Below are positions 8,315-62,283 of a stretch of DNA of 64,000 nt, piece after piece. The translations under genes and the position numbers were made by a program. The notes under the pieces were generated by a model. That model searched no databases, was not told the origin of the DNA, and saw nothing but the letters and a program-made list of their open reading frames with translations. Every line of letters begins with the position of its first letter. Position 1 is the stretch's first letter. Origin of the DNA: Olsenella sp. An290 (lineage in GTDB: Bacteria; Actinomycetota; Coriobacteriia; Coriobacteriales; Atopobiaceae); contig NZ_NFIU01000002.1 of NCBI RefSeq assembly GCF_002159535.1, positions 62,001-126,000 on the forward strand. Direction: 5' to 3'.

Positions 8315-10867
8315 CTACTCCACCTCCCGATACGCGGCGTCCGCCAGCTTCAGGTCCTCGAGGCCGTCCTTGTCGAGCAGGACCTCGCGCGGCTTGGAGC
8401 CGTTCGCGGGCCCGACGACGCCCTTGGCCTCGAGCATGTCCATGATGCGGCCCGCCCTAGCGTACCCCACGGAGAGGGCGCGCTGCAGGCTCGACGTCGA
8501 CCCCAGCTGAGATTCCACGACAATGCGCGCGGCCTCCCAGACGAGGGGGTCGTCGTCCTTGGCCGCGCCGGGCTCGGCCGCGCCCGGCGCGTTGGGCACC
8601 ACGGCGGTGAGGATGTCCTCGTGGTAGTCCGCCGTGACCTGGCCGCGGATGAAGGCGACGGTCTGCTCGATCTCCTCGTCGGAGACCCAGCAGCCCTGGG
8701 CGCGCCGCGGCTTCTTGCCGCGGAGCTTCACGAGCATGTCGCCCCTTCCGAGGAGCTGCTCGGCGCCCTTCTGGTCGAGGATGATGCGCGAGTTGATGGA
8801 GTTGTCCACCGAGAGCGCCACGCGGTTGTCGATGTTGGCGCGGATGAGGCCCGTGACGACGTCGGCCGAGGGGCGCTGGGTCGCCACGATGAGGTGGATG
8901 CCGGCTGCGCGGCCCAGCTGGGCGATGCGCACGATCGAGGACTCGACGTCCTTGCCGGCCACCATCATGAGGTCGGCGAGCTCGTCGATCACGATCACGA
9001 AGTACGGCATGTGCTTGGGCGGGTTCTCCATCTCGGCGTACTTGCCGCCGTCCACGTTGCCGTTGAAGGTCTTGATGTCGCGCACCTTGTAGTGCTCGAA
9101 GACCTTGAGGCGCCGCTCCATCTCGGTCACGCCCCACTGGAGGGCGCTCGCGGCCTGGCGGGGCTCGGTCACGACGGGCACGTAGAGGTGCGGCAGGCCC
9201 GCGTAGCCCGTGAACTCGACGCGCTTGGGGTCCACCATGATGAGGCGCACCTGCTCGGGCGTCGAGCGCATGAGCATGGACATGATGATGGCGTTGAGCA
9301 GGACCGACTTGCCCGAGCCCGTGGTGCCGGCCACGAGCAGGTGCGGCAGGCCCGCAAGGTCGACCACGATCGGGTTCCCCTCGGAGTCGCGGCCGAAGGC
9401 GCAGTCGAGGGGGCCGCCCGTGGCGTAGGGCAGGACGTCCGAGAGGAAGACCGGCTGGGGCTTCTCGTTGGGGATCTCGATGCCCACGAGCGAGGTGCCC
9501 GGGATGGGGGCGAAGATGCGCACCGACTTGGCCGCGAGCGACAGGGCGATGTCGTCCTCGAGGTTCACGATCTTGTTCACGCGCTCGCCCTCGCCCATGG
9601 AGATCTTGAACGTGGTGACCGAGGGGCCTGCGATCCAGCCCTCGACGCGCGAGGAGAGGCCGAACTCCTCGAGGGTGCCCTGGAGCTTGGCCGCCGTCGC
9701 GGAGAGCTCGGCGTCGTTGCCGTAGGAGCCGGAGGCGTCGGGGTTCTCGCGCAGGATCGAGAGCGGCGGGAGCTCATAGGACTCGTCGGCGTCGCCGGGG
9801 CGGGTGATCGCCGTCGGCGCGGCGCCCGTGCCCGCCTCCTTGGCCGTCCCCCGGGACTTCCGGGCGCGCCGCTCCGGTCGCAGGAACGAGGGCACGTCGC
9901 CGCCCTTCTCGCCCGAGGGGCCACCCTCGCTCGCCTCGGCCGGGCGCGGCTCGCGGGCGGGCTCCGCCGCCGGCTCATCGTCCTGGAAGAGCGCGCGGCC
10001 CCGCTCGCGGGCGCGGTCGAGGAGCGTGGTCTCGGGCTCGGCGGGCTCGTCCGCGGACGGGCGCGCCGCGCGCCCGCGCTTGAGCACGGTGGTCTTGCGG
10101 TCGCCGATGAAGGTCGTGGCCTGCTCGGCCCCCTCGTCGAAGAGGGAGGCCTGGGCGCCGTCGCGGCGGCCGGGAGCGCCGGCGGCAAGGTCCTCGTCGG
10201 CGGCGGCGTCGATGATGGCCTGGGAGCGGCGCTCCTCGGCGCGGGCGCGATGCTCCTCGGCAAGGCCGCCGAGGCGCTCGCGGGCATGGGCCACGGCGTC
10301 GGTGATGGAGAAGCCGCACACTACCACGCCGGCCACGACCACGCCCACCAGAAGCACGTTGCCGACCACGGGGCCCACGAGGGCGAGCAGGCCGTAGGCC
10401 ACGGCGCCGCCCACGCAGCCGCCCGCGACCTGCGCCACCACCGGCTCGAAGACGAGCATCGGGTCGGCCTGGGCGCCGTCGTGGTTGAGCGAGAGCATGG
10501 ACATGACGGCGAGCACGATGAGCGCGAGCCCCAGCGCGACGCGCCCGGAGACCGGGCCGTCGTCGCGCACGAAGAACGTCATGGCAAAGAGGAAGAGCGC
10601 GATGGGCACAAGGGCCGCCGCCGCGCCAAAGGAGAGCGCGAGAAAGTCGTGCACCGCGCTCGTCACCACGGCCGAGGACGGCGCGATGACGGACACGAGC
10701 ATGGCCACGGCGATGACCGCGAGGGCCACGCCGACGATGTCAGACTGGGTGGAGCCGAGCGCCGGCGCGGCGGCACGGGGGGTGGCGGCGCGCTTGGCCT
10801 GCCCCTTCCCCGCGGACGCGCCCGAAGCCCGCTTCCTGGCTGCGTTTGAAGTGCGTTTGGCGGGCAT
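8315..10867 (-). CDS. ftsK: DNA translocase FtsK/SpoIIIE
   Basis: An 850-residue protein with a Lys/Arg-rich start, about four transmembrane helices between residues 45 and 180, and a low-complexity linker to about 370. The RecA-like motor carries Walker A GTTGSGKS near residue 520. The C-terminus is a winged-helix gamma domain that reads polar DNA motifs. It pumps chromosome ends through the closing septum and activates XerCD. It follows rnj by four bases, a gene order (rnj-ftsK) found in many Gram-positives. Confidence 0.96.
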   Translation of the reverse strand: MPAKRTSNAARKRASGASAGKGQAKRAATPRAAAPALGSTQSDIVGVALAVIAVAMLVSVIAPSSAVVTSAVHDFLALSFGAAAALVPIALFLFAMTFFVRDDGPVSGRVALGLALIVLAVMSMLSLNHDGAQADPMLVFEPVVAQVAGGCVGGAVAYGLLALVGPVVGNVLLVGVVVAGVVVCGFSITDAVAHARERLGGLAEEHRARAEERRSQAIIDAAADEDLAAGAPGRRDGAQASLFDEGAEQATTFIGDRKTTVLKRGRAARPSADEPAEPETTLLDRARERGRALFQDDEPAAEPAREPRPAEASEGGPSGEKGGDVPSFLRPERRARKSRGTAKEAGTGAAPTAITRPGDADESYELPPLSILRENPDASGSYGNDAELSATAAKLQGTLEEFGLSSRVEGWIAGPSVTTFKISMGEGERVNKIVNLEDDIALSLAAKSVRIFAPIPGTSLVGIEIPNEKPQPVFLSDVLPYATGGPLDCAFGRDSEGNPIVVDLAGLPHLLVAGTTGSGKSVLLNAIIMSMLMRSTPEQVRLIMVDPKRVEFTGYAGLPHLYVPVVTEPRQAASALQWGVTEMERRLKVFEHYKVRDIKTFNGNVDGGKYAEMENPPKHMPYFVIVIDELADLMMVAGKDVESSIVRIAQLGRAAGIHLIVATQRPSADVVTGLIRANIDNRVALSVDNSINSRIILDQKGAEQLLGRGDMLVKLRGKKPRRAQGCWVSDEEIEQTVAFIRGQVTADYHEDILTAVVPNAPGAAEPGAAKDDDPLVWEAARIVVESQLGSTSSLQRALSVGYARAGRIMDMLEAKGVVGPANGSKPREVLLDKDGLEDLKLADAAYREVE

Positions 10868-57326: not shown

Positions 57327-59888
57327 CTACACCGCCACGATGTTGACCAGCCGGCCCTTGATGACGATGACCTTCTTGATCTCCTTGCCGGCGAGCTGCT
57401 CGGCCACGGCGGCCTTGGCGGCCTCGGCGACCTCGTCGTCGGTGGCGTCGGCGGCAACCGTGACGTGGCCGCGCACCTTGCCCTTGATCTGGACGGCAAG
57501 CTCGACCTCGTCGGCCTTGGCCGCGGCCTCGTCAAACTCGGGCCAGGCCGCGTTGTAGACCGAGCCCTCCTGGCCCAGGGCGCCGTGCCAGAGCTCCTCG
57601 GCCCAGTGCGGGCAGATCGGCGCGAGCATGGTCACGATCGCGTGCGCCACGGCAAAGCAGAGCGCCGGGTCGCGGCGCTCGGGCGCCACGTCGTTCACGT
57701 ACTTGGACGCCGCGTTGGTGATCTCCATGACGGCGGAGATGGCGGTGTTGAACTGGCCGCGGTCGAAGTCGGTGGTGCACTTGATGCCCATGCCGTTGAG
57801 CGTGCGCCAGAGCTCCTTGCCCGCCGCGTCGAGGGTGCCCGCGCTCACGGCGCCGGCGGCCGCGCCCTGGGAGAGCAGCCAGACGACGCGCCACGCGCGC
57901 TTGATGAAGCGGTTGGCGCCGGCGACGGCCTCCTCGTCCCAGTTGAAGTCCTTCTCGGGCGGGGCGATGAAGAGGATGGCCAGGCGCATGGTGTCCGCGC
58001 CGTAGGGCTCAATCACCGAGGACGGCGGCACGACGTTGCCCTTGGACTTGGACATGGTGTCGCCGTTGGCGTCCTTGACCATGCCCTGGCAGAGCAGGTT
58101 CTCAAAGGGCTCGTCGATGCCGATCATGCCGAGGTCGCGCAGGACCTTGGTGAAGAAGCGGCTGTAGAGCAGGTGCAGGATGGCGTGCTCGATGCCGCCG
58201 ATGTAGTTGTCCACCGGCATCCAGCGGTCCACCGCCTCGCGCGAGAAGGGCAGCTGATCGTTGTGCGGGTCGCAGTAGCGCAGGTAGTACCAGCTGGAGC
58301 ACGTGAAGGTGTCCATGGTGTCGGTGATGCGCTTGGCGGGGCGGCCGCACTTGGGGCAGGTGGTCTCGTAGAACGGCGCGTACTCGGCGAGCGTCTCGCC
58401 GGCACCGAGGTCCAGGTTGTCCGGCAGGCGCACCGGCAGGTCCTCGTAGGGCACCGGCACGTCGCCGCAGCAGTCGCAGTGGATCATCGGGATGGGGTTG
58501 CCCCAGTAGCGCTGGCGGCTGATCAGCCAGTCGCGCAGGCGGAACTGCACCGTCTTGCGGCCGAGGCCCTGCTCGCCGAGCCAGTCGATGATGGCGTCCA
58601 CGGCCTCGGAGTGCTTGCCGCCCTTCATGCCGGTGAACGGGCCGGACTGCACGAGGTAGCCCTCGGCCTCCATGGCGTGGTCCCAGTCCACCGAGGTCAC
58701 GCGGAGCTCGCGCTCGTCCTTGAGCTCGTCGTAGAGCGGGTCGTCCTTCTCGCAGATGATCGGGGCGATCTCAAGGCCGTACTTCTTGGCGAAGTCGAAG
58801 TCGCGCTGGTCGCCGCAGGGCACGCCCATGACGGCGCCGGTGCCGTAGTCCATGAGGACGTAGTCGGCGACCCAGATGGGCGCGGGGCGGCCGTTCACCG
58901 GGTTGATGACGTAGCGGCCCGTGAAGACGCCGTGCTTCTCGCGCTCGGAGCCCTGGCGGTCGACCGAGGAGACCTTCTCCGCGGCCGCCTTGAGCTCGAG
59001 GAAGGCCCCCTCGTGCTCCGTGCCGGCCACGAGCTCCGCGGCAAGGGGGCTCTCGGGCGGCAGCAGGAAGAAGGAGACGCCGAAGAGCGTGTCCGGGCGC
59101 GTGGTGAAGACGGTGATCTTGGTGTCGGTGGGGGTCACGCCGTCCTTGTCGGCCAGCGCGAAGTCGATCTCGGCGCCCTCGGAGCGGCCGATCCAGTTGG
59201 CCTGCATCGCGCGGACGCGCTCGGGCCACTTGCCCTCGAGCTTCCCCAGGTCGTCCAGGAGCTCCTGAGCGTAGTCGGTGATCTTGAAGTACCACTGGGA
59301 GAGCGGGCGCTTCTCGGGCACGGAGCCGCAGCGCCAGCACTTACCGTCCACGACCTGCTCGTTGGCAAGGACGGTCTGGCAGCCGGGGCACCAGTTCACC
59401 GGCGAGCTGTCTCGGTAGACGAGGCCCTTCTCCCACATCTTGAGGAAGATCCACTGGCCCCACTTGTAGTACTCGGGGTCGCAGGTGTTGAACATGCGGT
59501 CGTAGTCGTAGGAGAAGCCCATGCGGCGCATGGTCTTGGTGGCCTGCGCGATGTTCTGGTGCGTCCAGACGCTCGCCTGCGTGTTGTGCTTGATGGCGGC
59601 GTTCTCCGCGGGCAGGCCAAAGGCGTCGTAGCCCATCGGGTGCAGCACGTCGAAGCCGCGCATGCGCGCCTGGCGGGCCATGGCGTCACCGATCGTGTAG
59701 TTGCGTGCGTGGCCCATGTGCAGGTCGCCCGAGGGGTACGGGAACATCTCGAGCACGTACTTCTTGGGCTTGGCGGGGTCCTCCTCGGTCTTGTAGAGGT
59801 CCTCGGCGTCCCAGGTCGCCTGCCACTTGGTCTCGATGGCCTCGGCGTCGTAGGCCGGGACCTCGAAGTTCTTCTCGGCGTCGCTCAT
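57327..59888 (-). CDS. leuS: Leucine--tRNA ligase
   Basis: An 853-residue class I synthetase with HMGH at 57-60 (HIGH motif), the CP1 editing domain and MSKSKGN near 613 (KMSKS motif). It charges tRNA-Leu and edits wrong amino acids. I chose the ATG at 59888 ([14 protein letters not shown]) with AAGGAG before it. No T-box leader fits in the short upstream region. The promoter -10 TACAAT lies 38 bases upstream, next to the palindrome array. Confidence 0.97.
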
Positions 59889-59925
59889 CTGCGTGACTCC
59901 TTCTCCTGCGATGGCCAACCGCTTG

Positions 59926-59934: not shown

Positions 59935-59981
59935 GGACAGGCGCGCCGGGCGAGAAGAACCTCGTGGCGACGGCGGGTCCG

Positions 59982-60496
59982 GCTCGCTCGAAGTCACGCT
60001 TCGGCGGCCAAGGCGTTACTTTGAGCGAGCTTTCTTGCTTGGCTCACTCGAAGTCACGCTTTGTGCCCGGAATGCGTGAGTTCTGCTGAGTTTTCTTTCT
60101 TTGCTCACTCAAAGTCACACTTTGCGCGGGCAAGGCGTTACTTTGAGTGAGCTTTCACGCGCAGCTCACGAAAGCTCACGCTTCGACGGCCGGACGTGAC
60201 TTTTAGCGAGCTTGCGCGCGCGGCTCACTCGAACTCACGCTTCAGACGATCAGAACGTGACTTCGGACGTGCTTTCTTGCGTAACTCACTCGAACTCACG
60301 CTTTGCGCTCGGAAAGCGTGAGTTATGGTGAGTTTTCTTTCTCGACTCGTTAAGACTCACTCAAAGTCACGCTTTGCCAGTCAGAGTGTGACTTTGAGTG
60401 AGCTTTCTCGCACAGCTCACGAAAGCTCACGCTTTGAGCAGCGAAAGCGTGAGTTTGAGTGAGTCGTCTCCCCCGGCCCGCACAAAGTCACGCCCC
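59982..60496. repeat. Tandem array of imperfect palindromes, about 60-bp period
   Basis: Eight and a half units start at 59982, 60042, 60103, 60164, 60223, 60284, 60355 and 60415, with a fragment at 60476. Spacings are 60, 61, 61, 59, 61, 71 and 60 bases. Each unit begins near CTCACTC(A/G)AAGTCACGC and ends with the inverted form, GCGTGACTTTGAGTGAG, around a variable loop, followed by a short CTTTCTTGC-like linker. In unit 7 the arms CTCACTCAAAGTCAC pair perfectly. No gene lies in the 59889-60609 gap, and the sequence is clearly less GC-rich than its surroundings. Units differ by up to about 30 percent. Confidence 0.9.
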
Positions 60497-60515
60497 GGGC
60501 GAGAAGAACCTGCGC

Positions 60516-60609: not shown

Positions 60610-62121
60610 CTAGCGATAGCTCACGGAGTGCTGCGAGTCCTTGACCACGACGTCGTGCGCGCCGCCCTCGACGATCGAGGTCGAGCTCACGAGCGTGAGG
60701 CGCGCCTTCTCCTGCAGCTCCTTGATCGTGAGCGCGCCGCAGTTGCACATCGTGGACTTGATCTTGTAGATCGTCTGGCCCACGCCCTCCTTGAGGGAGC
60801 CCGCGTAGGGCACGTAGGAGTCAACGCCCTCGACAAAGCCCAGCTTGGAGGCGCCGCCCTGGTCGTAGCGCTGCCAGTTGCGGGCGCGCGCGGAGCCCTC
60901 GCCCCAGTACTCCTTCATGTACTGGCCGTTGACGTTGACGCGCTCGGTGGGGCTCTCGTCGAAGCGGGCGAAGTAGCGGCCGAGCATCATGAAGTCGGCG
61001 CCCATGGCAAGGGCGAGCGTCATGTGGTAGTCGTAGACGATGCCGCCGTCTGAGCAGACGGGCACGTAGACGCCGGTCTCCTCGAAGTACTTGTCGCGCG
61101 CGCGGCAGACGTCGATGACCGCCGAGGCCTGGCCGCGGCCGATGCCCTTGGTCTCGCGCGTGATGCAGATCGAGCCGCCGCCGATGCCCACCTTCACGAA
61201 GTCGGCGCCCGCGTCGGCGAGGAACCGGAAGCCGTCCTCGTCCACGACGTTGCCGGCGCCCACCTTGACGGAGTCGCCGTAGTTGGCGCGCACCCACTCG
61301 AGCGTGCGCTTCTGCCACTCGGAGAAGCCCTCGGAGGAGTCGATGCAGAGCACGTCGGCGCCGGCCTCCACGAGCAGCGGCACGCGCTCGGCGTAGTCGC
61401 GCGTGTTGATGCCCGCGCCCACCATGTAGCGCTTGTTGGCGTCCAAGAGCTCGTTGGGGTTGGACTTGTGCTGGTCGTAGTCCTTGCGGAAGACGATGCC
61501 CACCAGGTGGTCGTTCTCGTCCACCACGGGAAGGGCGTTGAGCTTGTTGTCCCAGATGACGTCGTTGGCGCGCTTGAGCGTGATGTCCTTGTCGCCCACG
61601 ATGAGCTTCTCGCGCGGCGTCATGAAGTCGCGGACCTTCTTCTGGTGGTCGTCGCGGGAGGGGCGATAGTCGCGGGAGGTCACGATGCCAAGGAGCCTGC
61701 CGCGGGAGGAGCCGTCGTCGGTGACGGGCATGGTGGAGTGGCCGGTGTGCTCCTTGAGAGCCATGACCTGCTCCATCGTCATGTCGGGCGTGAGGGTGGA
61801 GTCGGACTCCACGAAGCCGGCCTTGTGGTCCTTGACGGCCTTGACCATGGCCGCCTCCTGCTCGGGCGTCTGGTTGCCGTAGATGAAGGCCAGGCCGCCC
61901 TCGGTGGCCAGGGCGACGCCCATGCGCGCGCCGGAGACCGACTGCATGATGGCCGAGACCATGGGGATGTTGAGGCTGATGGCAGGCTCCTCGCCGCGGC
62001 GGAACTTCACGAGCGGCGTCCTGAGCGACACGTTGTCGGGGATGTTCTCCGCCGAGGAGTAGCCGGGGACGAGCAGATACTCGGAAAAGGTGTGGGACTC
62101 CCCCTCGAAGAACGTTGCCAT
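60610..62121 (-). CDS. guaB: Inosine-5'-monophosphate dehydrogenase
   Basis: A 503-residue IMPDH. The TIM barrel is interrupted by two CBS domains near 105-230 ([35 protein letters not shown]). The catalytic loop is [15 protein letters not shown] around 320 (Cys nucleophile). It converts IMP to XMP, the committed step to GMP. I chose the ATG at 62121 with GAGAGGAG before it. It is transcribed from TGTTACAAT and ends before the palindrome array. It is divergent from the AraC-type gene. Confidence 0.95.
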
Positions 62122-62168
62122 GCGATGGCTCCTCTCCCCGCCTGAGCGGTGTCGTCTGAGTTCACGCC

Positions 62169-62177
62169 ATTGTAACA
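62169..62177 (-). promoter_or_regulatory. Extended -10 promoter of guaB
   Basis: TGTTACAAT on the minus strand gives a leader of about 40 bases. No -35 is clear and no purine riboswitch fits. Confidence 0.5.
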
Positions 62178-62283
62178 TCCGCTCACGGGTTTTTCAGGGG
62201 CCGTTTGCCGAGAAGTGCCAGCGTGCGACAAGGACACACGGGAGGGGTGCGACCCGTATACTTGACGTGTGGAGAGGGGGCTC

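Follow-up and report, generated by a model that had tools for sequence, protein, structure and literature searches.

The window analysed here (the whole stretch of 64,000 nucleotides, part of contig C12 of the 2.15-Mb genome G000) contains, in the gap between leuS (57327-59918, minus strand) and guaB (60610-62178, minus strand), an array of a short site whose orientation alternates strictly from one copy to the next. A PWM scan located 17 copies of the 17-bp site CTC[A/G]CnnnAA[G/C]TCACGC at 59983-60493, which amount to 8.5 units of about 61 bp, and TRF reported a period of 61 with 7.8 copies. The individual sites, all placed by the PWM scan, and a pair of direct repeats at the array edges are:

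59983-60493, no strand: full array, 17 sites of 17 bp at a pitch of 30-31 bp (PWM scan and TRF)
59942-59962, plus: left copy of a 21-bp direct repeat containing CGAGAAGAAC, array edge (repeat search and 10-mer enrichment)
59983-59999, plus: site 1
60013-60029, minus: site 2
60043-60059, plus: site 3
60074-60090, minus: site 4
60104-60120, plus: site 5
60135-60151, minus: site 6
60165-60181, plus: site 7
60194-60210, minus: site 8
60224-60240, plus: site 9
60255-60271, minus: site 10
60285-60301, plus: site 11
60316-60332, minus: site 12
60356-60372, plus: site 13, after a 40-bp interval (about one helical turn longer)
60386-60402, minus: site 14
60416-60432, plus: site 15
60447-60463, minus: site 16
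60477-60493, plus: site 17, degenerate
60491-60511, plus: right copy of the 21-bp direct repeat containing CGAGAAGAAC, array edge (repeat search)

Successive site centres are 30, 30, 31, 30, 31, 30, 29, 30, 31, 30, 31, 40, 30, 30, 31 and 30 bp apart. An earlier, sequence-only reading had described a palindrome array with a regular period of about 60 bases and one irregular gap of 71, devoid of genes, unlike its surroundings in base composition and of no type that it could name, and on all these points it was right. The gap of 71 is real and reflects the single 40-bp interval between sites 12 and 13, no gene call overlaps the array, and its GC content is 54.6% compared to 64.6-65.8% in 500-bp stretches of the adjacent genes and 70.3% in the whole window. 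The IMPDH encoded next to the array is 96% identical to that of Thermophilibacter gallinarum and related "Olsenella", which suggests Thermophilibacter (Atopobiaceae) as the genus. As a separate observation, the window contains 15 copies of the 10-mer CGAGAAGAAC (including those at 59951 and 60500) against 0.17 expected, to which Glu-Lys-Asn codons contribute some. Its density in and within about 80 bp of the G000 arrays is 2.92/kb compared to 0.27/kb elsewhere (around 11-fold), it is also found at the borders of arrays of other motifs in other species, and it is possibly a second recognition or target site.

The sequence-only reading had also proposed that, in some units, a variant base in one arm has its match in the other and that pairing therefore matters, which our data contradict. 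Across 51 units, 79.6% of cells are paired compared to 79.2 ± 0.6% with shuffled arms, arm covariation is 0.132 compared to 0.126 ± 0.009 for shuffled arms. In a separate comparison, convergent arm pairs differ at 7.70 positions compared to 7.73 ± 0.12 for random pairs within the same array. Single sites are self-complementary over a few bases at most, and conservation at individual positions without covariation of the arms resembles that of a protein-binding site. It is thus highly improbable that the units, palindromes though they are, form an array of hairpin RNAs or terminators with selected arm pairing: two covariation tests at chance level rule out selection on a hairpin or RNA, the arrays are strand-symmetric, and they are found in divergent gaps as well, while Rfam returned only sub-threshold miRNA noise for the array. 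The lack of compensatory changes had been expected to mark the array as a local repeat without function, but this rule fails because the array belongs to a set of about 31 for which there is a cognate gene (see below).

Across the genome of this gut bacterium (G000), the site forms around 31 arrays with about 290 sites, all of them intergenic. The PWM gave 289 matches in 291 kb of scanned DNA compared to 1-4 in shuffled DNA, and a pattern count at up to 2 mismatches gave 71+66 matches compared to 1+1 for a reversed control pattern; since 135 of the 137 genome-wide matches fall in loci that we examined, the census is close to complete. Arrays occupy gaps of the convergent, tandem and divergent kind, and the few overlaps between arrays and genes reflect over-long starts among gene calls that are rough. 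The commonest array size is ten sites. In the three main genomes and a few others, consecutive sites alternate in 531 of 537 intervals, and 502 of the 537 measure 30 or 31 bp, while the longer ones group at 40-43 bp or about one helical turn more. Conservation at CTC[A/G]C, AA and [G/C]TCACG is mostly 87-100%, and the linkers of 13-14 bases have a fixed length and an essentially random sequence.

A motif search in related genomes, as the sequence-only reading had suggested, found this CTCAC motif to be abundant in G007 and G020, and these were the only genomes among the 30 others of the genus to contain it in quantity by pattern count and profile search. G025 has an array of the CTCAC motif in the same leuS-guaB gap (L157). 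In other species (L028, L031, L032, L034 and L060), this gap contains differing, species-specific inverted repeats such as GGTTATGCG, GGGGTCGTTGCACC and GTGCACCTGAGG. Separately, a three-site array shared by G000 and G008 (L024 / L154) is 97-100% identical between the two species with flanks that are otherwise 95-99% identical, a pattern that either recent common descent or a transfer of this region would explain.

Three orthologous gaps contain an array in one species but none in another, which suggests array turnover, and the linkers of arrays at shared positions are mostly non-homologous. A clean target-site duplication was not found at the empty sites, where the boundaries are too diverged to call one. 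A motif-free gap in G023 (L122, around 10350-10440) holds a repeat of its own, TGTGACAGTTGGCTACGACCCC. One pair of arrays from diverged species does have homologous linkers (G007 L135 and G020 L160), and here 4 of 88 positions changed in the site cores compared to 24 of 170 in the linkers (p = 0.02). This slower change of the cores also fits a maintained function as opposed to a purely selfish repeat.

Comparing array flanks in the three motif-rich species G000, G007 and G020 revealed one neighbourhood with arrays in all of them (L022, L136 and L164), around a gene of about 350 codons whose rate of evolution exceeds that of the adjacent region. In G000 and G007, this gene has arrays on either side, while in G020 one array is located immediately downstream and the next one past the neighbouring gene. 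The G000 copy is an unannotated gene encoding 347 amino acids (G000:C23:8852-9892, L174) and is enclosed by arrays of the same site. G000 also encodes a paralogue with 43% identity (G000:C10:24873-25868).

The protein (P0001) has no meaningful match in Pfam, NCBIfam or, by sequence, the PDB, and its family does not match PF01797. Among 25 aligned homologues, E213, E261, D263, G264 and K267 are invariant and D247 is conserved in at least 90%, and the conserved residues form the blocks GGESIAR, D and GExDGxxK. The glutamate, aspartate and lysine residues among them would constitute the signature of a PD-(D/E)XK nuclease. Members from the genus match AbiEi profiles at E~0.01, whereas distant family members match AbiEi_4 (PF13338, E 9e-10) and AbiEi_1 (PF09407, E 3.6e-7) at the N-terminus, and some of them match REase_MTES_1575 (E 1.8e-7), a match that does not reach the curated cut-off of this profile. 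PADLOC reported only weak AbiEi matches for the family. The G000 protein is therefore a putative nuclease on the basis of its conserved residues and distant relatives. One homologue (L179) is without the conserved aspartate, yet has arrays.

If this gene is the partner of the arrays, one would expect homologues elsewhere to have different palindromes with this layout on their flanks, and these palindromes to be dispersed in the respective genomes only; both predictions held. The flanks of homologues contain alternating inverted sites of unrelated sequence (e.g., TACGCGATTTCCAACG, CCCTCCCAAACCTACG, GTGCGGGTTGCGGACGG, TTGCGGTTGGTAACG and more), and a word of at least 13 bp is common to the upstream and downstream flanks of 46 out of 66 homologues, a set that includes a few loci duplicating each other, compared to 3 out of 66 mismatched pairs. 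When four motif families were tested over 31 genomes, all 15 predicted genomes were positive together with one extra (G009). Predicted and observed genomes are the same for the CTCAC family (G000, G007 and G020; hypergeometric p = 2e-4), the TACGCG family (G003, G004, G024, G028 and G030; p = 6e-6) and the GTGCGG family (G002, G006, G012 and G025; p = 3e-5). Accordingly, TACGCGANTTCCAACG has 24-49 matches in exactly the genomes of the TACGCG family and no more than 6 in any other, and GTGCGGGTTNCGGACGG has 49-141 in exactly those of the GTGCGG family, whose homologues bear GTGCGGGTTNCGGACGG or a close variant (L194, L195, L233 and L234), and no more than 14 elsewhere. The CCCTCC family was predicted for G002, G010 and G011 and observed in the same genomes plus G009 (p = 9e-4). 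Its motif ACCCTCCCAAACCTACG is abundant in all of these, including G009 despite no homologue being detectable there, where the copies are perhaps a relic after gene loss.

Protein and motif distances are correlated (Mantel r = 0.61, reached in 0 of 5000 permutations) in a comparison that includes the effect of relatedness and uses motifs that were manually aligned on the inner ACR. The inner end terminates in the three bases ACR in 18 out of 20 homologues while the outer part is variable, and the link between protein and motif is strongest at alignment columns of about 91-150.

Spread of the arrays as REP/BIME elements by the genome's own RAYT (Y1_Tnp) genes would be in line with the presence of PF01797 genes in 28 of the 31 genus genomes, including 2 copies in G000, and with site orientations that alternate as they do in BIMEs (PMC2817692). 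We nevertheless regard it as barely credible because the site is absent beside the examined Y1_Tnp genes of G000, G007 and G020, the presence of the motif instead follows the P0001 homologue, the GTAG tag is absent, and single sites are no hairpins. The two RAYT-like genes of G000 (G000:C3:14915-15244 and G000:C23:130776-131114) encode a C-terminal helix-turn-helix-like segment, and genomes of the genus have 0-6 Y1_Tnp genes each.

The family of P0001 was found in 117 out of 249 Coriobacteriales genomes and 32 out of 99 genera, with some copies carrying in-frame stops, and more distant members are present in other Actinomycetota beyond the Coriobacteriia. The gene of Collinsella aerofaciens (412152-413228 in NZ_OY725717) sits among arrays of GTCTCGATCTGTAACR, a motif that ends in ACR and has 37 sites at a pitch of about 40 bp in this 0.9-Mb record compared to 0 for the control. 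A Collinsella homologue is annotated as "hypothetical protein". In the 5.1-Mb genome G403 from another family, both flanks of the homologue contain inverted pairs of GCGAGCAGACGCAGAATCGC spaced 40 bp apart; this motif has 36+35 dispersed copies compared to 0 for the control and is almost absent from three genomes of the same genus. Pitches of 30/31 bp and 40 bp in different lineages indicate that the pitch seems to shift in steps of about one helical turn. No viral contig or phage matched the P0001 protein or the site, and the sole match of P0001 in a plasmid collection was a 900-kb record from C. aerofaciens that bears the label plasmid 6, so that we rejected a phage, virus or plasmid origin.

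The AbiEi-like and REase-like domains of the family, together with the binding of AbiEi proteins to inverted repeats at their own promoter (PMC7319586), could point to a defence or addiction module in which a restriction- or toxin-like nuclease would be restrained, titrated or guided by the arrays. This is improbable in our view, given that the PADLOC matches to AbiEi are weak, that phage and viral sequences yielded neither homologue nor site, and that around 290 genomic sites would endanger the host of such a nuclease unless it were silent.

Building on the site with its geometry and dispersal, the association of gene and motif and their correlated change, we favour, with somewhat more confidence than doubt, the interpretation that the leuS-guaB array is one of about 31 dispersed copies of the recognition-site array of the endonuclease-like protein of about 350 amino acids, in a partnership resembling a REPtron. 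This protein, with its predicted AbiEi-like DNA-binding N-terminus and PD-(D/E)XK-like C-terminus, would recognise the arrays and most likely bind their sites cooperatively on one face of the DNA, given that neighbouring sites are about three helical turns apart. Arrays would then probably be copied or moved in trans to other intergenic gaps through the nuclease domain of the protein together with host repair, in which case gene and palindromes would behave like a REPtron (RAYT plus REP/BIME) based on an unrelated enzyme.

The arrays could alternatively be fixed binding sites of a domesticated DNA-binding protein involved in chromosome organisation or transcription, with a nuclease domain that is vestigial or otherwise used. 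Rigid helical phasing, conserved cores that in one orthologous array change less than the linkers, the use of convergent, tandem and divergent gaps alike, and the G025 array in the same leuS-guaB gap would all suit such a role. We consider it unlikely, though worth serious attention, in view of the fast turnover that leaves arrays missing at orthologous gaps of related species, the mostly non-homologous linkers at shared positions, the flanking of the gene by arrays and the in-frame stops of some homologues, both typical of mobile or selfish genes, and the nuclease-type residues retained in most members.

Relatives throughout the phylum have gene and palindromes arranged in the same way, with a different sequence each, and gene and repeat look like a partnership of an undescribed kind. 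Our literature search, whose open-access scope leaves many journals and all preprints outside, found no description of this gene-repeat system. A wider proposition, which we advance tentatively and with slightly more doubt than confidence, is that a class of dispersed palindromes throughout the Actinomycetota is mobilised by AbiEi-REase fusions that evolve new specificity, keeping the helical phasing and, at least in Coriobacteriia, a conserved inner ACR next to a variable outer part. This would be a second, independent invention of a RAYT/REP-like system, here based on a restriction-type endonuclease.

To our knowledge, RAYTs are so far the only enzyme class with which REP-like repeats have been associated. 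The same gene-plus-repeat logic in a different protein family would show that palindromes dispersed outside genes have arisen more than once. It would also provide work on specificity with a natural series of proteins whose matching DNA sites change along with them, and it would account for many of the species-specific repeats between genes in gut bacteria of the Collinsella/Olsenella type and in other actinobacteria. Culturable species would allow binding, nuclease activity and array gain all to be tested directly. No enzyme is known for at least one REP superfamily (PMC3733652).

Among known systems, CRISPR arrays share the period of about 61 bp and variable sequence between repeats, but the repeats described here alternate, are degenerate and occupy about 31 loci with no cas link seen; alternating degenerate sites in place of direct, near-identical repeats with unique spacers rule out this identity. 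A generic palindrome-array detector was noisy on other loci, with one strong match that is a true CRISPR. The genus does contain a true CRISPR in G014 (L119, 8290-8746), type I-E-like with a 61-bp period and a repeat containing CCCCGCATACGCGGGGA. AbiEi type IV antitoxins, which bind inverted repeats near their own gene or promoter (PMC7319586), may share the AbiEi-type N-terminal domain, which is clear in distant family members, whereas the family presented here has an additional REase-like C-terminus and arrays dispersed over the genome, with no AbiEii toxin noticed. The CGTC-tagged REPs are palindromic and without a known Y1 partner (PMC3733652), and some of our sites read CGTC on one strand, but those elements are single tagged hairpins described mainly from alphaproteobacteria. 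The closest parallel are REPtrons, in which extragenic, high-copy, alternating and species-specific REP/BIME elements are paired with a RAYT (TnpA-REP) whose gene is flanked by the palindromes (PMC2817692, PMC8266576, PMC3733652). Both have many alternating extragenic copies (here 31 arrays and 531 of 537 intervals), a cognate gene bordered by inverted copies of the same repeat (L022, L136 and L164; 46 of 66 homologues), and a species-specific repeat that changes together with the gene. They differ in the enzyme, which is here a predicted fusion of an AbiEi-like N-terminus and a REase-like C-terminus instead of an HUH/Y1 (PF01797) transposase, and in the unit, which is here a non-hairpin site of 16-17 bp in phased, alternating arrays (30/31 or 40 bp) and not a GTAG- or CGTC-tagged hairpin, with pairing not under selection in G000. 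Because both the RAYT enzyme and a tagged-hairpin unit are missing, the arrays should not be filed as REP/BIME elements, though their logic is that of a REPtron.
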